A stretch of 64,000 bases of DNA. Origin: Candidatus Brocadia sp. Its GTDB lineage: Bacteria; Planctomycetota; Brocadiia; Brocadiales; Brocadiaceae. The notes under the pieces were generated by a model, which made no database searches, was not told the origin of the DNA, and was given only the letters and a program-made list of their open reading frames with translations. How positions within the stretch are numbered: the stretch's first letter is position 1; every line of letters starts with the position of its first letter. The position numbers and the translations under genes were made by a program. The stretch is from positions 1-64,000 of the forward strand of contig JABWAQ010000005.1 of the NCBI GenBank assembly GCA_013360945.1, given 5' to 3'. This document shows positions 501 through 10,476 of the stretch, piece after piece.

Positions 501-537
501 AAAAAGGCTTACTCCAAAAAACGGAGTAAGCCTTTTT
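501..537. terminator. Strong bidirectional rho-independent terminator
   Basis: A perfect 15-bp stem (501-515 with 523-537) with a 7-base loop is flanked by A/T tracts on both sides. It can therefore stop the remnant on the plus strand and the HAO-like gene on the minus strand, whose stop codon lies 34 bases away at 571. Confidence 0.9.
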
Positions 538-570: not shown

Positions 571-2208
571 TTATTCAACCAGACAATTCTCACCCTCATG
601 ATTACACGCTGACTTATCCACATCACCTGGTTTTCTTCTCCAACCGAGGAGTAAATCCGTATACTCACCATGTTTCCAGAAATCGTATGCCTTATGTTGT
701 ATACCTACCTGATCCTCCAGCGCCTTGAGTCTCCTTAGTCTGCTGGCCTCAGCCTTAATCTCAACAAGCCAGCGATCCTGCAAGAAGGCGCCTTTCCCGT
801 AAGTCGCGCCGTACATAGCCCCGTGTGCCATGGCCTTGTATACGGCATTGGTTATATAGACCAGCATTTCAAAGGCGGTGCGTTCCACATCAGAAACGTT
901 ATACATCCTGCCCTCACCACCTAACAGACTAAAAGTATAGTGCCCTGCATAGTCAGGAGCCAGGTCGCTCGGCATGGGATCCAGCATGCCGTCGTTGTAA
1001 AGATCGATCACGATTTTCATAGCCTCACGCCATTTGGTAAAGCTGACTTTTACGGCCTCATCCATCGCCTCTAGTTGATCTGTTGCCCATCTTGGTGAAT
1101 GACAACCCTTGCAGGTATTAATCCAATTCTGCCTGGCCTCCTTAAATTTCGGCGCTCCACGGTCTACAAGCGCCGTGCCCATGTGGCTGTTAATCGTAGA
1201 GGCTTTCTGTGCGTTGTGTTCGCCGTCCTTCATGTGACAATATGCACAGGTGGGAGTTTTGTAATTAGCCGGTTTCATGGGCTTTGTCCAATCCCAGGTA
1301 TGCTGCTCCGATTCATAAATCATTCCATGATATGATTCCTTGTACATCTCATATTCATAGTGGTCAAGACCTGTATGGCAGATGCCGCAGTTATTAGGTT
1401 TTCTCGCCTCAGCCAGGGAAAAGTCGTGTCTTGTGTGGCAACCATCACAACGATTCTCGGCTATACCATGACAGGTGGCACATCCAGTAACCTCGGCAGC
1501 AGGCTTTGCTATCTGCCACGGGGTTTCTAATACGCTTACATGGAATGCGTGTGTGTGAGAACCGAGCTTGCCAGCGCGGTGACCATTTCTTTGTTCCGGA
1601 TGACACTCACCACAATGCTTCCAGGAGGGCATGTATAACTGCTGGTGATTATTCCCATGGCATTTGTCACAACCTACAACGCCCTTTTCTGTAGTGGCAT
1701 GTTTGCTTTTTTTCCACTGCGCAACGATGCCAGGTGTTTGTACCGTGTGACACATAATGCACTCTTCCTGCTTAAACTCTCCTGATACATTCATATTTGG
1801 TGTGTAATAATGATCGGGGTCATACCATCGGATAATAGGTAAAAACCCAAACAGTTTCCCAAATTTCCCCTCACCCGGTAACAGTTCTTCTGGCTCTGTG
1901 TACGTTGCCGTTAAACCACCGTGGTACAAATCACCTGTATTGTCAGCACCGATCTTTTCTCCCGTTGCCGCAGAGATAATTTGTTGAATTGTCCTCTTGT
2001 CTTTGGGACGGGACGCCGTCTCTTCTTTCTTTACCGGACTGGGAGCCTTTACCTCTTCTATTGGTTTGGCAGGAACTTCCTTCTCTTCTCCCTGTTTGAC
2101 AGTAACAACTTCAGCCTTTTTCACAGACGCCTGTTCGCAACCAAACTGGATACAACCAAACAGGGCAAATATACCCATCGTGATCGTAAGTTTTATGCCC
2201 TTGCCCAT
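571..2208 (-). CDS. Octaheme hydroxylamine oxidoreductase-like cytochrome c (HAO family), probable lipoprotein
   Basis: Of 545 residues, eight are CxxCH heme sites starting at residues 150, 180, 199, 243, 254, 274, 321 and 366, the number and bunching expected of the HAO / hydrazine dehydrogenase family. This family oxidises or reduces hydroxylamine, hydrazine, NO or nitrite outside the cytoplasm. Residues 1-24 form a leader with cysteines at 19 and 24 that fit a loose lipobox (LFGC, QFGC). A charged Lys/Glu/Pro linker (about 25-75) precedes the heme domain, and a helical region follows the last heme. No C-terminal membrane helix is seen. The catalytic P460 heme needs a crosslinking tyrosine in the C-terminal helices; Y466 and Y470 lie in a suitable stretch (about 459-475), but I cannot align them, so oxidative or reductive use is undecided. 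It is last in the minus-strand train and ends at a strong terminator. Confidence 0.93.
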   Translation of the reverse strand: MGKGIKLTITMGIFALFGCIQFGCEQASVKKAEVVTVKQGEEKEVPAKPIEEVKAPSPVKKEETASRPKDKRTIQQIISAATGEKIGADNTGDLYHGGLTATYTEPEELLPGEGKFGKLFGFLPIIRWYDPDHYYTPNMNVSGEFKQEECIMCHTVQTPGIVAQWKKSKHATTEKGVVGCDKCHGNNHQQLYMPSWKHCGECHPEQRNGHRAGKLGSHTHAFHVSVLETPWQIAKPAAEVTGCATCHGIAENRCDGCHTRHDFSLAEARKPNNCGICHTGLDHYEYEMYKESYHGMIYESEQHTWDWTKPMKPANYKTPTCAYCHMKDGEHNAQKASTINSHMGTALVDRGAPKFKEARQNWINTCKGCHSPRWATDQLEAMDEAVKVSFTKWREAMKIVIDLYNDGMLDPMPSDLAPDYAGHYTFSLLGGEGRMYNVSDVERTAFEMLVYITNAVYKAMAHGAMYGATYGKGAFLQDRWLVEIKAEASRLRRLKALEDQVGIQHKAYDFWKHGEYTDLLLGWRRKPGDVDKSACNHEGENCLVE

Positions 2209-2320
2209 ATCCTTTTCTTCCTCCTTTCCAAATTATGTTTATTAACAAACATGGATATTAAAAACTGCATGAACGTAAGCAGTGCTATAGTATTATTGTG
2301 TAAAGACTTCTTTATGTAAG

Positions 2321-2390
2321 TTTTTTTACAACCCCCTTGACCCATCTTTGTTAAGGGGGACTTGGTTGCGGCTCAGCTGCGTTATGTACC
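2321..2390 (-). repeat. Dispersed repeat, copy A
   Basis: Read on the minus strand, this segment matches segments at 26631-26694 and 33371-33432 (plus strand). Shared blocks are ATAACGC(A/G)GC, CCGCA-CCAA-TCCC and TTA(A/G)CAAAG. Its inner part folds as a CCCCCTT/AAGGGGG hairpin. It fills most of the gap between the HAO-like and DUF2249 genes. No coding content is seen. Confidence 0.7.
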
Positions 2391-2627
2391 TTATTTTTTT
2401 GTTATTTCAACCTTCCAAATCTCCGGTCCTTGTTCAATGTATTTCCAGTCCATTTGCCCTGTTCGTTCTGCATCAAGTTGGTACTTTAATGGCTTAGGGT
2501 CGTGATCATTGATAATTATCATCATCTCTCCCTTTTTTAGACTATCAAAGGTATTAAATATCTTTGGATGTCTTTCCCGTGGCACAATATTTCTGACATC
2601 CAGGATAACAGGCGTTGTCTTATTCAT
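2391..2627 (-). CDS. DUF2249 domain protein
   Basis: This 78-residue protein is essentially one DUF2249 domain: an LDVRN-like first strand, a PRERHP turn, a KKGE turn, an NDHDPKPL motif and a closing W-K-Y...W-K-V-E-I. The start is the internal ATG at 2627, because the five codons before it contain its GGAGTAAG ribosome-binding site; a start at 2642 is less likely. Members of the family recur next to genes of nitrite, NO and respiratory metabolism; the biochemical role is unknown. It lies just upstream of the HAO-like gene on the same strand, with only a repeat between them. Confidence 0.85.
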   Translation of the reverse strand: MNKTTPVILDVRNIVPRERHPKIFNTFDSLKKGEMMIIINDHDPKPLKYQLDAERTGQMDWKYIEQGPEIWKVEITKK

Positions 2628-2660
2628 GCTTACTCCTTCCATTCAAAATTTTCAATATCT

Positions 2661-2740
2661 AACGACAAAGGCCGCAGAGAAATTATAGATTTTTAAGCGG
2701 GCAGAAAACTTTTAAATATTTCTCTGCGGACTTTGTCGTT
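2661..2740. repeat. Long imperfect hairpin (23-bp arms)
   Basis: Arms 2661-2683 and 2718-2740 are reverse complements with a single mismatch, around a 34-base loop. It occupies the gap between the cupin and DUF2249 genes of the minus-strand train. There is no long T-run directly after either arm, so it may be an RNA-processing or attenuation hairpin, or a small inverted-repeat element, rather than a plain terminator. Confidence 0.75.
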
Positions 2741-2756
2741 TATCTTTCCTGTTCAT

Positions 2757-3059
2757 TTATCCCACGCTAATGGCCAAAACAACCATTCTTTCGACACATC
2801 TCATCCCTCTGGAAGAACCCTCCGGGGCAACGATTATGGTGTCTTTTTCCATTTCAACCTCCTGATTATCGAGGGTAAAAATTCCCTTTCCTTCTTTGAC
2901 ATAAAATATACCAATACTCTGCCCGCCGTGGGGAGGGATTTCCTGCCCAGGTTCCATACAAATAAGGGGCATCTTCACCTTTGGCGAAGCGTAAAGAATG
3001 TTTGGAATAAAGTGCTCTTTATTGAATTTCATCTTTTCTTTTAGACGTATCGGTTCCAA
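2757..3059 (-). CDS. Small cupin-domain protein
   Basis: A single-domain cupin of 100 residues from a TTG start at 3059, or 91 residues from the ATG at 3032. It shows the PGQEIPPHGG segment of cupin motif 1 with a histidine ligand, a G-x-G turn (EGKGIFTL) and a PEGSSRGMR segment that replaces the usual second histidine motif. Metal binding may therefore be incomplete. It is cytoplasmic, with no signal peptide. The TTG start sits two bases after the stop of the redox-disulfide gene, so the two are probably co-translated. A sensor or small-molecule-binding role is possible but not shown. Confidence 0.8.
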   Translation of the reverse strand: MEPIRLKEKMKFNKEHFIPNILYASPKVKMPLICMEPGQEIPPHGGQSIGIFYVKEGKGIFTLDNQEVEMEKDTIIVAPEGSSRGMRCVERMVVLAISVG

Positions 3060-3061
3060 AT

Positions 3062-3289
3062 TTATTTTTTAACCTCCTCTTGTTTTGCTGCTTCGTTTAA
3101 TTCTTTCACGAATTTATCAACATCGGTGCTATGCATCATACAAGCAAGGTTTATATCCTCTGTGCCAAAGGAAGGACAATCGAAACACCCTTTGCCGAAA
3201 TATTTTGTAAAAACTGCTTTTGTCGCGGGGTACTTTTTCGTTACTTCTCCGGTGCTCATTTTCTTTGTGATGAGAATTTCACTGCCCAT
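3062..3289 (-). CDS. DUF1858-type redox-disulfide protein (hybrid-cluster-protein-associated type)
   Basis: From the ATG at 3289, preceded by an AGGAGG ribosome-binding site, this is a 75-residue protein. It opens with an ITKKMSTGEVTKKYPATKAVF segment, followed by FGKGCFDCPSFGTED and a third cysteine in NLACMMH. The CxxC in a small all-helical protein is typical of the DUF1858 family that often accompanies hybrid cluster proteins and NO or nitrite enzymes. An upstream extension to 3415 is open but has no ribosome-binding site. It is probably a cytoplasmic thiol-redox or metal-binding accessory of the downstream train. Confidence 0.82.
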   Translation of the reverse strand: MGSEILITKKMSTGEVTKKYPATKAVFTKYFGKGCFDCPSFGTEDINLACMMHSTDVDKFVKELNEAAKQEEVKK

Positions 3290-3418
3290 ATTTTTCCTCC
3301 TATTTAAGACAGAAAGAACGATGAAATAATAAACTATCTCACGAATACTATTTCCCCTGTTATGGTTAGCGGAATTAAGCCTTTCTAATGCTGCTTTATA
3401 TATTCGCCAACCCAAAAA

Positions 3419-4660
3419 CTAGCTTACCCCTGCAAGGGTAGTTTCATGTTCTGCCAGTTCAACCGGTGCAATATCTTCTATTTTCACCGGCAGTCGCACG
3501 TTTTTCGGGAGTGGATCAATGTATTTTTTCCTGTACGCCTTACTCTGCATTCGGCACGTGGGGTATCTCTTACTAAAATCGGGATGAGTTACCATCTTCT
3601 TCCAAATTTCCTGAATGGACATATCGCGCACATTCCCGAAGTTGATCGGATTAAAATCACAAGGATTAATGTCACCGTATGCGGTCATATAAAATTGCGA
3701 CTGTGCCCCATAACAACCCACACCCCTTGGTGAATTAATAATCGACATACAGTTTATCCCCATAGGATGATTCATCTCGTGATACTTCTTTGTGAGGGCA
3801 ATCAATTGTTTCCGGTCTTCAGCGGTCAATATTTTTGAGGTATCTTTCAAGAATCGACCCGATGGTATGCAATCGAAGATAGTGACCTCTGAAAATCCTT
3901 GTTCTTGCGCAATCTTTAAGAGTTTTTCAACCTTTCCTGTCTTGATACTCTCGCTGGTTGCGTATGTGGAAATTCCTGTTAAGATGCCGGCCTTTCGACA
4001 ACGCTCAGCTCCTTCAAACGCCTTTTGATAACAACCTGGCACCGCCCTGAACTCGTTGTGCAATTCAGGTTCACTGCTATCTATAGAGATATTTAAGGAA
4101 AACAACCCTGCCTGAGCGAGTTTCTGAACGTTTTCGTCCGTCAGAAGCAACCCATTGGTAAATATCATGGGGATCGCCTTGGTTTTATCTATATGGCGAA
4201 TAAGCTCATAAAGTTCTTCCCGAAGCAGGGGTTCTCCACCGACGTAGATTATAAGGCTTGCGCCAAGATCTAATGCCCCATCCACCACGGTTTTTATTTC
4301 CTCTACGGTAAGCTCTTTTTTGGTAGAGTCTATAAATGGATCTGCGCTGCAATGGATGCATTGACACTGGCATTTATGCGTGATGGCCAGGTTGGCCGTG
4401 ACGGGAAATGCCATCTTATACAGCATCATCCTCAACTTTCTCTCAAGAAATCTCATGCCAGCCTGGCTGGGAAAAGGAGGATTATAAAGGTTATAAACAT
4501 TCATTCCGTTGACCTTCGCAATCACCTTCAGGGAATTAATCTTTTCAAAAAACTGGTCAACATACGATTGCAACATCTTGCCCAACATCCCTTCTGCCTT
4601 TCCTACAACCCTACCTCCAATGATCTCCGCTTCGATATGTAAAAAATCAAATGATGTCAT
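3419..4660 (-). CDS. Radical SAM protein with SPASM-like C-terminal cysteines
   Basis: 413 residues. The radical SAM cluster motif CxxxCxxC is at C97, C101 and C104 (CQCQCIHC), after an unusual N-terminal extension of about 90 residues. A YVGGEPLL motif (the GGE SAM-binding strand) follows, and the C-terminal third carries further cysteines (GINC, GVGCYG, NPCDF, TCRM) like those binding auxiliary Fe-S clusters in SPASM/twitch proteins. The family includes peptide, heme and cofactor maturases. Its start overlaps the end of the oxidoreductase gene upstream by 4 bases and a GGAGG lies in front of it. Its place next to an octaheme protein suggests a maturation role, but the substrate is unknown. 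Confidence 0.87.
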   Translation of the reverse strand: MTSFDFLHIEAEIIGGRVVGKAEGMLGKMLQSYVDQFFEKINSLKVIAKVNGMNVYNLYNPPFPSQAGMRFLERKLRMMLYKMAFPVTANLAITHKCQCQCIHCSADPFIDSTKKELTVEEIKTVVDGALDLGASLIIYVGGEPLLREELYELIRHIDKTKAIPMIFTNGLLLTDENVQKLAQAGLFSLNISIDSSEPELHNEFRAVPGCYQKAFEGAERCRKAGILTGISTYATSESIKTGKVEKLLKIAQEQGFSEVTIFDCIPSGRFLKDTSKILTAEDRKQLIALTKKYHEMNHPMGINCMSIINSPRGVGCYGAQSQFYMTAYGDINPCDFNPINFGNVRDMSIQEIWKKMVTHPDFSKRYPTCRMQSKAYRKKYIDPLPKNVRLPVKIEDIAPVELAEHETTLAGVS

Positions 4661-5691
4661 ATTTTATCCTCCATAACCGTATTGTGAGCCAGTTTGAGAT
4701 TTTTTTCTATCTCGCACAAAATATCGTTTGCGACCTGGATAGCCTTTAAGCCATCCTCACCCGAAACAACAGGCTCTTTGTGCTCTAAAATACAATCAAC
4801 AAAAGATTCTAGTTCCTTCTTGAGTGGCTCACAATCGTCCATCTTTATATGCTCTATTTTTAATAAGTCGCCAAAGACATAACTTTTCAAATCCGCAATG
4901 GTAGAAACATCCATTTCGGAGATATTTAATGCCTTTAATGTCAGTTTGGGTGATTTTTTATATATTAATGCATCCTTTTTCTGATAATCAATAGAAATAT
5001 AGGAATCCTCGGAAAACAACCTCATCTTACGCATAGACGTAAGTGATACCCGGCTTGCGGTTATATTTGCCACACATCCGTTCTGAAATTGGATACGGAC
5101 ATTAGCGATATCCTCTTTGTCTGAAATCACATTTACCCCTACGGCGTCAAATTTTTTTACCTGAGAACCCGTTATGTGCAAAATAATATCAATATCATGG
5201 ATCATCAAATCCAGCACCACACCAATATCGGCAGATCGAAAAGTAAACGGGCTTAACCGATGACACTCTATGAATCTGGGTTTAATTGAAAGTTTTTTAA
5301 TTGCAGCAATTGCAGGATTAAATCGTTCAATATATCCTACCTGCAGTACGACCCCCCTTGCCTTACTGATACCGATTAATTCTCTCGCTTCCGACACCGT
5401 TCCTGTCATAGGTTTTTCGAGCATGACGTGGACTCCGTGCTGAAGGAAATCCTTTGCTATGGCATAATGCGATTTTGTGGGCACTGCAATACTTACAGCT
5501 GCAACTTTGCCGATTATATCCTTATAATTTGAGAAACACTGCGTATTGTACTGTTGGGCAATTTTTTCTGCCTGTTTACGTTGTATATCAACCACCCCAA
5601 CCAATTCTACTTCGGGCAACTCTGTGTAAACCCGCGCATGCTCTTTCCCCAGATGTCCAACACCAATTACTGCAACCTTTAATCTATGCAT
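4657..5691 (-). CDS. Gfo/Idh/MocA-family NAD(P)-dependent oxidoreductase, GnnA-like
   Basis: 344 residues. The N-terminal Rossmann motif is VIGVGHLGKEH, the family EKP motif is LEKPMTG, and a MIHDIDIILH segment supplies the active-site histidine region. It lies three bases after lpxA on the same strand. In Acidithiobacillus and Leptospira the Gfo/Idh enzyme GnnA, beside lpxA, oxidises UDP-GlcNAc at C3 so that the aminotransferase GnnB can make a 2,3-diamino sugar for amide-linked lipid A. That makes a lipid A role likely here. No gnnB-type aminotransferase lies in the window, so the pathway is inferred only from position and family. Confidence 0.85.
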   Translation of the reverse strand: MHRLKVAVIGVGHLGKEHARVYTELPEVELVGVVDIQRKQAEKIAQQYNTQCFSNYKDIIGKVAAVSIAVPTKSHYAIAKDFLQHGVHVMLEKPMTGTVSEARELIGISKARGVVLQVGYIERFNPAIAAIKKLSIKPRFIECHRLSPFTFRSADIGVVLDLMIHDIDIILHITGSQVKKFDAVGVNVISDKEDIANVRIQFQNGCVANITASRVSLTSMRKMRLFSEDSYISIDYQKKDALIYKKSPKLTLKALNISEMDVSTIADLKSYVFGDLLKIEHIKMDDCEPLKKELESFVDCILEHKEPVVSGEDGLKAIQVANDILCEIEKNLKLAHNTVMEDKI

Positions 5692-5693
5692 GG

Positions 5694-6515
5694 TTAAGTT
5701 GTCGCCACCGCTGAGTATCGAAAAAACTCCCGATACCTTCCGAACTTACCTTTGTCAATATTTCTCAAAAAGGCAACAAGATACGTGACTTCCGGAGAAA
5801 TGTCTTTTTTTCTTTCCAATTCTTCCAATATCTTGCTTTTATTCAATTCGTTCGAACGAAATACCGTCCGAAAGGCTTCCTTTATTTCGTCAATCTGTTC
5901 CTTTGAAAACCCCTCTCGTTCCAATCCAATGATATTCACCTGACGTATCTTTGCAGGATGACCCTCGATAATCATATATGGCGGTACATCTTGAACAATC
6001 CTGGTATGACCTCCCACATAAGCATATCGCCCAATGGTCACAAAAGGTTGTATGCCAACAAGTCCCATAAGTTTGGCGCTTCTTTCCACAACAACGTGCC
6101 CACCCAGTAAAACCCCGTTTGCCAGAAGGACGTTATCTTCTATAATACAATCATGGGCAATGTGTGCGCATGCCATGAAGAAATTGTTATCACCTATAAC
6201 TGTTTTTTCTCCGCCACAAGCCGTACCAATATTAATGGTTACCCCCTCCCTGACCACATTGTTGTCTCCTAACACGAGGGAGGTGCGCTCACCACGATAT
6301 TTAAGGTCTTGCGGTTCTGCACCTAAAACGGCATTGGGATGTATAATATTGTCTTTCCCAATCGTTGTATTTCCAACCACAGTAACATGGTTCTTTATGA
6401 CGGTTCTGTCTCCAATGGTAACGTCCGCGCCAATTATAGAAAAAGGGCCTATCTCAACTTCTTTACCTAAAACGGCATTGGGATGTACAATAGCCGATTT
6501 ATGAATTCTCATCAC
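5694..6515 (-). CDS. lpxA: Acyl-[ACP]-UDP-N-acetylglucosamine O-acyltransferase
   Basis: 273 residues, close to the usual 260-270. The N-terminal two thirds are hexapeptide repeats forming a left-handed beta-helix. The catalytic histidine motif is seen as AHIAHDC (H121, with H118). A C-terminal helical domain ends in the usual way. It transfers a 3-hydroxyacyl group to UDP-GlcNAc or its 3-amino form, the first step of lipid A synthesis in the cytoplasm. It starts with two ATGs in a row, so a 272-residue start is equally possible. It lies between lpxC and the gnnA-like gene. Confidence 0.95.
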   Translation of the reverse strand: MMRIHKSAIVHPNAVLGKEVEIGPFSIIGADVTIGDRTVIKNHVTVVGNTTIGKDNIIHPNAVLGAEPQDLKYRGERTSLVLGDNNVVREGVTINIGTACGGEKTVIGDNNFFMACAHIAHDCIIEDNVLLANGVLLGGHVVVERSAKLMGLVGIQPFVTIGRYAYVGGHTRIVQDVPPYMIIEGHPAKIRQVNIIGLEREGFSKEQIDEIKEAFRTVFRSNELNKSKILEELERKKDISPEVTYLVAFLRNIDKGKFGRYREFFRYSAVATT

Positions 6516-6583: not shown

Positions 6584-7438
6584 TCATGCAACCCTTGCAA
6601 TCTTTTCTGCCAGCTGAACGTTCAGCGCATGACCAGACCTGTTTGCAACAATACGTCCCTGAATTACTACATTGGCTAAGTAAAGGTCTCCTATCAGATC
6701 CAAAATTTTGTGCCTTACAAACTCATTGGGGAATCTCAATTCAGCCGGTGTCATAGAAATCGGTTTTGTCATCTTTCCGTCTTCATGCACAATGATGCTA
6801 TTATCATCCGTAACCCCTTTGCCTAAGCCAAGACCCCTGAACTCTTCAACGTAGGTGCTTAATCCAAATGTCCTTGCCGGCGCAATCTCTTTGCAGAAGT
6901 TCTCTTCGGTGAACTCGATATCATAACTCTGTCGCTGTATAAAAGACCCGTCAAAATCCAGCGTATACGAAAATTGTAATCCTTTTTCATAGGGCACCGC
7001 CATAACGCTGGCGTTTCCGCTATTTACCATAATAGGAGCTTTTACCGTAAAAACCTTTTTTTTACCTCCCAACTCAATAATACCAGCCTTTTTGAGAGTT
7101 TCAACAAAGAGCTGAGCGCTCCCATCTCCGGCAGGAATCTCCTGACCATGTACTTCAATCTCAATATTATCTATCCCTAGCCCCGCCAAAGCCGCCATAA
7201 GATGCTCTACGCTCTCAACCTCGGCTTGTTTGTTCTTCAAGAATACGCGTTTATAATTGCTAGATAAGGCGTGAACATGGGCGGTTACCCTTGGCCGATC
7301 AGGCAAATCCACACGAACAAAACATATACCAGCGTTTAGAGGTGCTGGTTTAAAATGGAGCTTTGTAATTCCACCCCTAAACATCCCTATGCCAGAGCAC
7401 CCCGTTTCTTGCCCAATTGTCTTTTGTACGGTGTCCAC
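6584..7438 (-). CDS. lpxC: UDP-3-O-acyl-N-acetylglucosamine deacetylase
   Basis: 284 residues, the first committed enzyme of lipid A synthesis. Zinc-ligand and catalytic motifs are visible: VEHLMAAL (H79), RHKILDLIGDL with His and Asp, and the C-terminal SGHALN histidine. It begins with GTG three bases after the skp/ompH stop. It is a stand-alone LpxC and not fused to FabZ, unlike the fusions found in Bacteroidetes. A 68-base gap separates it from lpxA. Confidence 0.95.
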   Translation of the reverse strand: MDTVQKTIGQETGCSGIGMFRGGITKLHFKPAPLNAGICFVRVDLPDRPRVTAHVHALSSNYKRVFLKNKQAEVESVEHLMAALAGLGIDNIEIEVHGQEIPAGDGSAQLFVETLKKAGIIELGGKKKVFTVKAPIMVNSGNASVMAVPYEKGLQFSYTLDFDGSFIQRQSYDIEFTEENFCKEIAPARTFGLSTYVEEFRGLGLGKGVTDDNSIIVHEDGKMTKPISMTPAELRFPNEFVRHKILDLIGDLYLANVVIQGRIVANRSGHALNVQLAEKIARVA

Positions 7439-7441
7439 GGA

Positions 7442-8095
7442 CTACTTTCCCTTGGTCGTTGCTGAATATTTTTTGTTTAAGTTATCAATTACCTGAGCGG
7501 TGATGTTGACTGAGTCGGAATTGTACAAAACTGTTTTTATTCCGACTTTAAACTGCAATTCAGAAATTCCACCGGTTTGTAACTCCGGCTCGTCTTTTTT
7601 GATAATCAGATCATATTGTTCGCGCCTGCCGATATCTTCTACTTCTTTACAGACTTCCGTATAGAGGTTTTGGAAGTAATCCTTATATTTTTTCATGAGA
7701 CTCTTTTCTGCAAATTTCGCGTAGGATTCCAATTCCATATTTTTTTTCTCAAAGGTCTCTTCATCCTTCTTTCTCGCCTCACTCCCTAAATCCAACAATT
7801 GTATCTTCTCACTTAGGCTCACCAGTTCTTTCTTTTTATCATTAACAATTTTTTGGTACTGTTTTTCCTGCTCCTTGAGTTGCACATCAAATGCCTTCCT
7901 TTTTTCATACTTCTCAAATACATTATTGAGATCAACGACTCCCACCTTTAAACCTTTTGAGGGCGCACTTGCTGCCCCGGATTCTTTTGCCTGGATACTA
8001 TTCAATGAAAGCAGGCACAAACTTGCAAAACTTGCCACAACAAAAACAATGTTTATCTTTCTGCTAGTCTTTTTAACCGGTTTTTCTGATTTCAT
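7442..8095 (-). CDS. OmpH/Skp-family periplasmic chaperone
   Basis: 217 residues with a signal/anchor near residues 15-37 after a basic start, a short VGVVDLNNVFEKYEK segment typical of OmpH/Skp, and a long coiled coil (about 60-150) that forms the tentacles of the trimeric chaperone. The family holds unfolded outer-membrane proteins in the periplasm. It lies immediately downstream of bamA (2-base gap) and upstream of lpxC, the classic bamA-skp-lpx arrangement. Confidence 0.9.
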   Translation of the reverse strand: MKSEKPVKKTSRKINIVFVVASFASLCLLSLNSIQAKESGAASAPSKGLKVGVVDLNNVFEKYEKRKAFDVQLKEQEKQYQKIVNDKKKELVSLSEKIQLLDLGSEARKKDEETFEKKNMELESYAKFAEKSLMKKYKDYFQNLYTEVCKEVEDIGRREQYDLIIKKDEPELQTGGISELQFKVGIKTVLYNSDSVNITAQVIDNLNKKYSATTKGK

Positions 8096-8097
8096 AA

Positions 8098-10476
8098 TTA
8101 AAAACTGCCACCTCCTCCAAAATTAAATGAAAACGCCTGAGTTTCATCCTCGTCTTCTTTTACCACAGGAATACCATAATCAATTGATATAGTAGAACGG
8201 CCGAGAAAAGGAACATTCAGTCTTAATCCAACACCTGTGGATAATCTGAAGTTGTCAAAATTAATGTCACTGGCTGATTCATCAGCCTTTCCACTGTCAA
8301 CAAAAACCGCCATCCGGATAATATCCTTATAGATGGGCACAAGGTATTCTGCATTCATAATCATCAATATGTTACCGCCAATTTGATCACCCGTTTTGCT
8401 GTCAACAGGCGATATACCTCTATACTCAAAACCTCTAATAGAGCCATAACCACCGGCAAAAAATCTTTCAAATATAGGAACTTCTTTCCCAGAGGTTGAT
8501 TCCACAATGCCAAAGGTGCCCCCATAAGCAAGGACATGTTTTCCCCATTTAGGAACTTCAAAGAGGGTATTATATTTTGTTGTTTTAATTTTATATTTTG
8601 TTATATCCACATCCAACCCGGCAAATTCCACCGATGATTCTCCATCGTACCCTTTTGACGGCATATATATATTGTCGGTTCTGGTTATATTTGCAGACAA
8701 CGTAACACCCGCTTTCAAATGGCTACCTTCCACATCGAGCACATCTTGCGGGGTGTCTTCCTTATCATCCCGTCTTTCAATGTCTATAATATCAAACTCC
8801 GGACTCAACCTCACAACAAAATCCCTCTGAATTTCTCTTCCTACAGCAATTCTTGAACCCAGGTCTTGTTGCTGATACTCGCGGTACCATCTCAGGTAAT
8901 TAAAAAAGCTTACTCCCGCACTATAGGGAGAGTCGAATACGGAGGGATTGGTTAGAGATACCAGAATTTCTGTCCTCTCAAACCCTGGGCTAAACCGCAA
9001 TGTTAAAATCTCACCAGCGCCACGAAAGGCGTTACCCTGTAAAAAATCTTCCCAACTTTTTGGCAGATCAGTAATGTCGAAGTTTCTATCTGTATACGAA
9101 ATATCGCCAAAAGCCCCGATGTTTGCTCCATAACCTCCACCAAACCGCAGCATTCCCGTTCTTCCTTCTTTTACCTCTATCAGAATATTTTGCTTCCCAT
9201 GCTCTGAACCTTGCTCGAAATTAATACCAGCTGGCATGCCTGACTCCATGTCAAAATACCCGGTATTGGTTAAACGCCTCTGGCTATCGCGTATCTTTTC
9301 TGTGTCCAGCTTTTCGCCTGGATAAAACGTCAGCTGTCGGCGGATAACGTTATCGCGCGTTTTATCGTTTCCCGTTATTTTGATCTTTTCGATATAATGC
9401 CTATCTTTTTCTTCTATCGCAAAAGAAATATCCACCTTTGTGCCTTCAGCACGAAAGGTATGTTTCTCTTTAACAATGGCTGCAATATAACCTTGCTCTC
9501 CATACGCTAAACGGATCTGGTAAGTATCCTTCTCGACTGCATCTAAAAAGAAAGGACCACCCTCTTTCAATTTCAATTTTTCCTTTAATTCTTCCTCTGT
9601 GAACAGATTTGCTCCGTTTATCTGTAAACTTTCCACGTAATATCTCTCGCCTTCTTTTACATGGATAGTAATATACATCTTCCTGTTGTCATCGCTGTAT
9701 GTTATTTCCCAGCCTGCCTCGACATCCAGCCATCCATTATTCATATAAAATTCTTTTACCTTTTCAATGTCGGACTCAAATTTATTTTTGTCAAACCGGC
9801 CTGGAAAGATAAAGGTGGGAAAATGCTTCTGCCGGGTTTCCATCTGTTTTAGGAGCTTTCTGCGCTTGAAATTTGTATTACCCTTAAACTCTATTTCGGC
9901 GATGCGAATCTTAGGTCCCTCGTCGATGTTGAAAATCACAACCGTTTTCCCGTCTGCTACTTTACTTTCTGCATGTACCTGTATGCGATTAAAGCACTTT
10001 TTTATATAAAATTCTTTGATTTTGTCTTCATCCAGTTTCAAGAGATAAGGTTTTAAATAATCCCCCTGTTTTATCACGATCTGTTTATTCAAGTGCTTGG
10101 CCTTGATCTTCTTATTGCCCTGAAACTGTATCTCGTCAATTACTACCCGTTCAGTTACAACAAATATCAGCTTCAACCCATCTGGCATATCTTCAAACTC
10201 TACCCCGATATTATCAAAGAACCCTAACGACCAGATCGTATCCACATCTTGACTAATTACATGGGGATCATAAAGGTCGCCCTCCTTTGCCCGTATACTG
10301 TTCCTTATGGCAGCTGTACTAATGCGCTGATTTCCTCGGATTTCAATCTTTTTAATGATCCGCGATGCCTTTCCCTGAATTTCGGCACCATGAACCCTTC
10401 CATACCCAAAATACAAGGTTATAACAAGCACTACGAACAAACTCGTTGCCTGCAATAAAACCTTGCGCAATTTCAT
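8098..10476 (-). CDS. bamA: Outer membrane protein assembly factor BamA
   Basis: 792 residues. A signal peptide (about 1-30) is followed by five POTRA repeats (about 40-420; recurrent KIEIRGN, IQFQGNKKI, IEFKGNTNF, LQINGANLF, IKITGNDKT starts) and a C-terminal 16-strand beta-barrel. The barrel carries an FAGGYGSIRGFEYRG segment, matching the conserved G-x-x-S-IRGF turn of BamA/Omp85. It inserts beta-barrel proteins in the outer membrane. It overlaps the dnaB stop by 4 bases. Confidence 0.95.
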   Translation of the reverse strand: MKLRKVLLQATSLFVVLVITLYFGYGRVHGAEIQGKASRIIKKIEIRGNQRISTAAIRNSIRAKEGDLYDPHVISQDVDTIWSLGFFDNIGVEFEDMPDGLKLIFVVTERVVIDEIQFQGNKKIKAKHLNKQIVIKQGDYLKPYLLKLDEDKIKEFYIKKCFNRIQVHAESKVADGKTVVIFNIDEGPKIRIAEIEFKGNTNFKRRKLLKQMETRQKHFPTFIFPGRFDKNKFESDIEKVKEFYMNNGWLDVEAGWEITYSDDNRKMYITIHVKEGERYYVESLQINGANLFTEEELKEKLKLKEGGPFFLDAVEKDTYQIRLAYGEQGYIAAIVKEKHTFRAEGTKVDISFAIEEKDRHYIEKIKITGNDKTRDNVIRRQLTFYPGEKLDTEKIRDSQRRLTNTGYFDMESGMPAGINFEQGSEHGKQNILIEVKEGRTGMLRFGGGYGANIGAFGDISYTDRNFDITDLPKSWEDFLQGNAFRGAGEILTLRFSPGFERTEILVSLTNPSVFDSPYSAGVSFFNYLRWYREYQQQDLGSRIAVGREIQRDFVVRLSPEFDIIDIERRDDKEDTPQDVLDVEGSHLKAGVTLSANITRTDNIYMPSKGYDGESSVEFAGLDVDITKYKIKTTKYNTLFEVPKWGKHVLAYGGTFGIVESTSGKEVPIFERFFAGGYGSIRGFEYRGISPVDSKTGDQIGGNILMIMNAEYLVPIYKDIIRMAVFVDSGKADESASDINFDNFRLSTGVGLRLNVPFLGRSTISIDYGIPVVKEDEDETQAFSFNFGGGGSF

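Follow-up and report, generated by a model that had tools for sequence, protein, structure and literature searches.

The window analysed here is the first 64 kb (positions 1 to 64,000) of contig JABWAQ010000005.1 of the anammox bacterium Candidatus Brocadia sp. (assembly GCA_013360945.1, a genome of 3.85 Mb). Anammox bacteria possess about ten octaheme paralogues, most of them without an assigned role, and one such gene lies on the minus strand near the start of the window. Just upstream of it, on the same strand, are genes for a DUF2249 protein, a small cupin, a DUF1858 redox-disulfide protein and a radical SAM/SPASM protein. An original prediction, made from the sequence, gave the coordinates and strands of these genes correctly and proposed that they could form an accessory or maturation set serving a single octaheme enzyme. 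We find that the locus is probably a junction at which three gene blocks that differ in age meet, and in which the octaheme gene is the kusta0043-type HAO paralogue. The octaheme gene and its elements are as follows.

571-2208, minus strand: octaheme P460-type HAO paralogue, orthologue of kusta0043 (eight CxxCH motifs, Pfam and Protein Data Bank (PDB) matches, tree, synteny)
2137-2208, minus strand: signal peptide (residues 1-24), possibly of lipoprotein type (Cys19/Cys24; PS51257-like match at Cys19 only)
1993-2136, minus strand: charged low-complexity linker (residues 25-72), specific to Brocadiaceae-type orthologues (alignment, residue counts)
1360-1365, minus strand: predicted catalytic pair Asp282-His283 (phmmer alignment to 4fas; kept in HAO4 orthologues)
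799-801, minus strand: Tyr470, equivalent of Nitrosomonas HAO Tyr467 (phmmer alignment to 4fas and 4n4j; 54-protein alignment)
501-537, minus strand: intrinsic terminator just 3' of the octaheme gene (16-pair stem, then T tract)

The open reading frame encodes 545 residues with eight CxxCH motifs (3.6 matches to the nucleotide form of this motif are expected per 64 kb). It matches the Pfam families Multi-haem_cyto (5.9e-42) and Hao_C (9.8e-11), which agrees with the predicted HAO family, and its eight motifs align with all eight of HOX. The nearest solved structures are an anammox HAO-like protein (6t5e, E 3e-183) and Kuenenia HOX (4n4j, E 5e-182), the more distant ones HDH (6hif, E 4e-122) and Nitrosomonas HAO (E 9e-49). 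Two candidates, Y466 and Y470, had been put forward for the tyrosine that crosslinks the P460 heme. In phmmer alignments it is Y470, not Y466, that pairs with Tyr467 of Nitrosomonas HAO, and Y466 was thus rejected; D282-H283 pairs with Asp267-His268. Tyr467 is the established crosslink tyrosine of Nitrosomonas HAO, and Asp267-His268 its catalytic pair. Among 54 aligned octaheme and related multiheme proteins, the tyrosine and the Asp-His pair are kept in every orthologue except that of one genome, G033 (compared genomes and the loci read are designated below by G and L numbers, respectively).

The protein shares with HOX (kustc1061; 4n4j) and 6t5e the fold family, the eight CxxCH, the crosslink tyrosine and the Asp-His pair. 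It differs from them by its long charged linker and its genomic place, and it belongs to a separate clade: in a maximum-likelihood tree, the Brocadiaceae orthologues group together with 100/100 support, apart from HOX. Identity to HOX is only about 55%, and an assignment as HOX was rejected on both grounds. HDH (6hif; NF052343) is likewise an octaheme protein with the tyrosine and the Asp-His pair, but the score against its NCBIfam equivalog NF052343 is 443 bits, for a cut-off of 900, and this assignment was rejected too. Sequence comparison thus establishes the predicted protein as a P460-type HAO paralogue distinct from both HOX and HDH.

Its counterpart in Kuenenia could be named. Genome G031 is that of Kuenenia stuttgartiensis, as shown by a HOX that agrees with 4n4j letter for letter across 500 residues. 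In that species kusta0033 is BamA (PMC3422733), and kusta0043 is an HAO of 591-592 residues (PMC3482989, PMC4913261). The G031 orthologue is an open frame of 592 residues about ten genes past bamA; this match in length and position identifies the octaheme protein of the window as the kusta0043 orthologue. The two are 79% identical over the alignment and have in common their place relative to bamA, lpx and DUF2249 genes, the linker type, and the P460 and Asp-His residues, whereas the Kuenenia leader lacks a conserved lipidation-type cysteine and its cluster lacks the radical SAM gene. Among the heme-rich nitrogen-oxidising enzymes of anammox bacteria, the protein is thus one already known, though with no characterised function. 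It probably belongs to HAO4, reportedly a clade of Okubo et al. HAO4 is described as not found in Scalindua (PMC12758564); our clade was not found in the Scalindua-type genera g19 and g20, and it is from this absence that the name is taken.

Two relatives deserve separate mention. The G023 orthologue (L077:1259-2923) has GAYCH in place of CAYCH, leaving seven CxxCH, possibly through a sequencing error, or else by a real loss. A sister paralogue (G000:C135:21982-23382; L132:6973-8742) keeps the P460 tyrosine (5 of 5 aligned) and has Glu-Gln in place of Asp-His; the DNA pattern of this EQ motif has exactly one match per genome in 38 of the 62 genomes of the order that were compared, in families f1, f3, f4 and f5.

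The predicted charged linker is real: 45 residues after the leader include 12 K/R and 9 D/E. Its length varies from 45 to 115 residues among Brocadiaceae orthologues, and it is absent in HOX. A lipoprotein-type leader is no more than possible, and lipidation is doubtful. Cys19 matches the PROSITE pattern PS51257 in most members of g1; Cys24 is better conserved, but usually falls outside the pattern and is missing from Kuenenia-type orthologues. The pattern also gives a false hit on Kuenenia HOX, a protein that in its crystal structure begins behind an AxA site.

The features between the octaheme gene and the lipid A genes are the following.

2286-2385, minus strand: dispersed repeat of about 100 bp between the DUF2249 and octaheme genes (40 scored matches in its own genome)
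2391-2642, minus strand: DUF2249 protein with TusA/SirA-like fold and no cysteine (Pfam; AlphaFold model; weak Foldseek matches)
2757-3059, minus strand: small cupin with one conserved motif histidine, H44 (Pfam; alignment)
3062-3289, minus strand: DUF1858/TIGR03980 redox-disulfide protein (CFDCPSFG), with corrected start (Pfam, NCBIfam, orthologue alignment; related to 2k53)
3419-4660, minus strand: radical SAM/SPASM protein, from the lipid A cluster of Planctomycetota (Pfam, NCBIfam, gene-order comparison)

All four upstream genes are what they had been called, with matches to DUF2249 (3.6e-29), Cupin_2 (3.3e-9), DUF1858 (5.2e-11) and TIGR03980 (8.1e-14), and to Radical_SAM (1.9e-22) and SPASM (1.1e-8). 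The DUF1858 frame had been called from TTG 3415; its start is most likely ATG 3289, because orthologues align only from about there. Further upstream, the cluster continues with mocA, lpxA, lpxC, ompH, bamA and dnaB.

Gene order was compared among the 62 genomes, which fall into families f1 (Brocadiaceae-type) to f5, f4 being Scalindua-type. A lack of conservation had been set beforehand as a possible refutation of a joint unit; the order is conserved across the Brocadiaceae, with DUF2249 directly before the octaheme gene in 24 of 25 f1 genomes, from 11 genera. The gap between these two genes is 69-85 bp in most f1 genomes. Here it is 182 bp, and first looked possible as a promoter region, then proved to be mostly the dispersed repeat, whose matches within the genome are 72-100% identical; relatives lack it at this site. 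A promoter scan was uninformative on co-transcription (20 promoter-like sites, for 16.5 expected). Past the octaheme gene, gene content varies even between Brocadia species, and the terminator follows, so the conserved run ends at the octaheme gene. The whole block from dnaB to DUF2249 is also conserved in f1. In G033, the sole f1 genome with the octaheme gene outside the run (L091:9572-11254), the gene starts at TTG and its product has lost Tyr470 and carries Glu for the catalytic Asp, while all eight CxxCH are kept.

We then consider the radical SAM gene, which separates from the others outside f1. Its product is 72-83% identical in f2, f3 and f4, where it lies directly behind lpxC-lpxA-mocA in all ten loci read; in none of the ten does it adjoin a DUF1858, cupin, DUF2249 or octaheme gene. 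In other Planctomycetota it follows lpxA-mocA in 3 of 5 loci. Kuenenia lacks this radical SAM gene, yet its octaheme gene is intact, with Tyr and Asp-His. The Radical_SAM plus SPASM architecture is that of AhbD, NirJ and PqqE, but the gene here adjoins lpxA-mocA and not heme genes, and the protein is far under every NCBIfam equivalog cut-off, heme enzymes included (best 157 versus 500 bits). As an order-wide lpx companion missing from Kuenenia, it was rejected as a P460 or heme maturase. The most fitting place for it is in the outer-membrane/lipid A block rather than in an octaheme unit, and the Planctomycetota family is a candidate lipid A/lipopolysaccharide (LPS) modification enzyme. In the three non-anammox Planctomycetota loci just mentioned (L152, L155 and L156) the family stands after lpxA-mocA, with a putative LpxB-like gene, so named by sequence, between in two of them.

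The order DUF1858-cupin-(second cupin)-DUF2249, hereafter the module, is present in f1, f4 and f5. In f4 it is found among housekeeping genes and faces an aspartate-aminotransferase-like gene directly next to DUF2249; in several f1 genomes this aminotransferase gene is found immediately past the octaheme gene. Most Scalindua-type genomes have the module without an octaheme neighbour, and this octaheme clade is absent from them. In f3 the octaheme clade is present with Tyr and Asp-His, but without cupin or DUF2249. In two related genomes, G049 and G058, the sister P460-type ("EQ") gene independently stands directly before the module. As side observations, a single fused frame encodes both cupins of the module in G056, a Scalindua (L116:8450-9061), and a contig labelled Spirochaetia (L191, JAOUOS010000020.1) carries a DUF2249 protein 71% identical to the anammox one, which points to a mis-binned contig or a transfer.

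The AlphaFold model of the DUF2249 protein (pLDDT 91.8) has a TusA/SirA-like topology and no cysteine. Foldseek gave no match below E 0.001 for this model (SirA/TusA matches are weak, with E above 0.01), so that the likeness is one of topology and TM-scores (0.62-0.72). Outside anammox bacteria, genes beside DUF2249 include those for TusA, DUF1858, COX1-family proteins and Crp-type regulators. A DUF2249 scan of the genome collection turned up no comparable cupin/DUF1858/HAO combination in non-anammox genomes, save some weakly similar cupins beside DUF2249. DUF2249 and DUF1858 had been said to recur near nitric oxide (NO) and nitrite enzymes; in this neighbour survey and in the literature they do recur together near NO/nitrate respiration genes (PMC6282519; PMC11218638). 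In Thermus, nitrate-dependent control requires DrpB, a fusion of DUF1858 and DUF2249 (PMC6282519), and haloarchaea induce DUF2249 genes when they denitrify (PMC11218638). The module combines the same two domains as the Thermus DrpA/DrpB pair (DUF2249; DUF1858-DUF2249-DUF2249; PMC6282519), but as separate genes spaced by one or two cupins, and its neighbours are octaheme or housekeeping genes, not nar. Our best guess from these comparisons is that the module is a cytosolic N-oxide-responsive or redox unit.

The remaining genes of the cluster that lie upstream are listed here.

4657-5691, minus strand: mocA (Pfam, gene order)
5694-6515, minus strand: lpxA (Pfam, gene order)
6584-7438, minus strand: lpxC (Pfam, gene order)
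7442-8095, minus strand: ompH (Pfam, gene order)
8098-10476, minus strand: bamA (Pfam, gene order)

The junction of three blocks, which we consider likely, would have the following history. The first block, dnaB-bamA-ompH-lpxC-lpxA-mocA-radical SAM, would be an old outer-membrane/lipid A cluster, in which the substrate of the radical SAM protein is most likely a lipid A- or LPS-related product and not the octaheme enzyme. The second would be the anammox module, ancestrally facing the aminotransferase-like gene. The third, the octaheme gene, would have come to lie between DUF2249 and the aminotransferase in an ancestor of the Brocadiaceae, apparently the simplest history, and would have remained the last gene before the terminator. 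Its product would be exported through its signal peptide, presumably to the anammoxosome, and carry eight c-hemes. Within a putative trimer, Tyr470 of one subunit would crosslink heme 4 of the neighbour subunit to give the P460 heme. With Asp282-His283 as catalytic pair, it would act on a small nitrogen compound, most likely oxidising hydroxylamine to NO, or else hydrazine. The module, most likely a redox or N-oxide-responsive unit of the cytosol resembling a split DrpB, may in Brocadiaceae share a transcript with the octaheme gene, yet would not be needed to make the octaheme protein.

Several points weigh against this history. The polarity, insertion in the ancestor, is deduced by parsimony. 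Across 11 genera the octaheme gene has strictly kept its place as the last of the run, which hints at something other than chance. The joint loss of linkage and of P460 residues in G033 would fit a functional tie between the module and P460 enzymes, and the sister P460-type gene beside the module in G049 and G058 would fit a real functional tie as well.

Such a tie could be loose, the module being a cytosolic sensor of NO, nitrite or hydroxylamine, or a redox relay, that adjusts the expression of P460-type octaheme enzymes, with radical SAM as a bystander. This is conceivable, though less likely than not: the DrpB fusion and its link to nitrate-dependent control, the COX1-family, Crp-type and DUF1858 neighbours of DUF2249 elsewhere, the haloarchaeal induction, and the arrival of two separate P460-type genes next to the module argue for it, but most Scalindua-type modules sit among housekeeping genes without an octaheme neighbour. 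It is equally conceivable that the octaheme gene is a positional passenger at the end of a block of conserved synteny and has no function in common with its neighbours. The conservation of the dnaB-to-DUF2249 block, the broken linkage outside f1 and the mismatched phyletic profiles of module and octaheme clade are consistent with this, but the break in synteny comes right behind the octaheme gene, even among closely related Brocadia species, and hardly ever ahead of it. A stronger version of the tie appears rather unlikely to us: a split DrpB-like sensor or relay of NO, nitrite or hydroxylamine, widespread in anammox bacteria, would control or protect P460-type octaheme enzymes, would have captured the kusta0043 type in Brocadiaceae and the EQ type in G049 and G058 independently, and the P460 tyrosine would be lost when the link breaks, as in G033.

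A maturation or accessory set made of radical SAM, DUF1858, cupin and DUF2249, for example one installing or protecting the P460 crosslink, would fit the stable gene order and close spacing seen in Brocadiaceae, the end of the conserved block at the octaheme gene and the loss of P460 residues in the sole unlinked copy (G033), but is very improbable, because set and enzyme fail to co-occur across genomes: radical SAM accompanies lpxA-mocA order-wide and in wider Planctomycetota, Kuenenia has the enzyme without radical SAM, f3 has it without cupin or DUF2249, and Scalindua-type genomes have the module without this enzyme. HOX and HDH also carry the same tyrosine. Moreover, heme is attached to c-type cytochromes after export, whereas no signal peptide was seen by eye in the radical SAM, DUF1858, cupin and DUF2249 proteins.

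Returning to the junction of three blocks, the kusta0043-type paralogue is now placed as a predicted P460-type enzyme that lies, family-wide, at the end of a run holding the DUF1858/cupin/DUF2249 module, and the radical SAM gene is removed as a candidate octaheme maturase. If it is true that the module senses NO or nitrite, it would offer a first handle on the regulation of octaheme enzymes in anammox bacteria.

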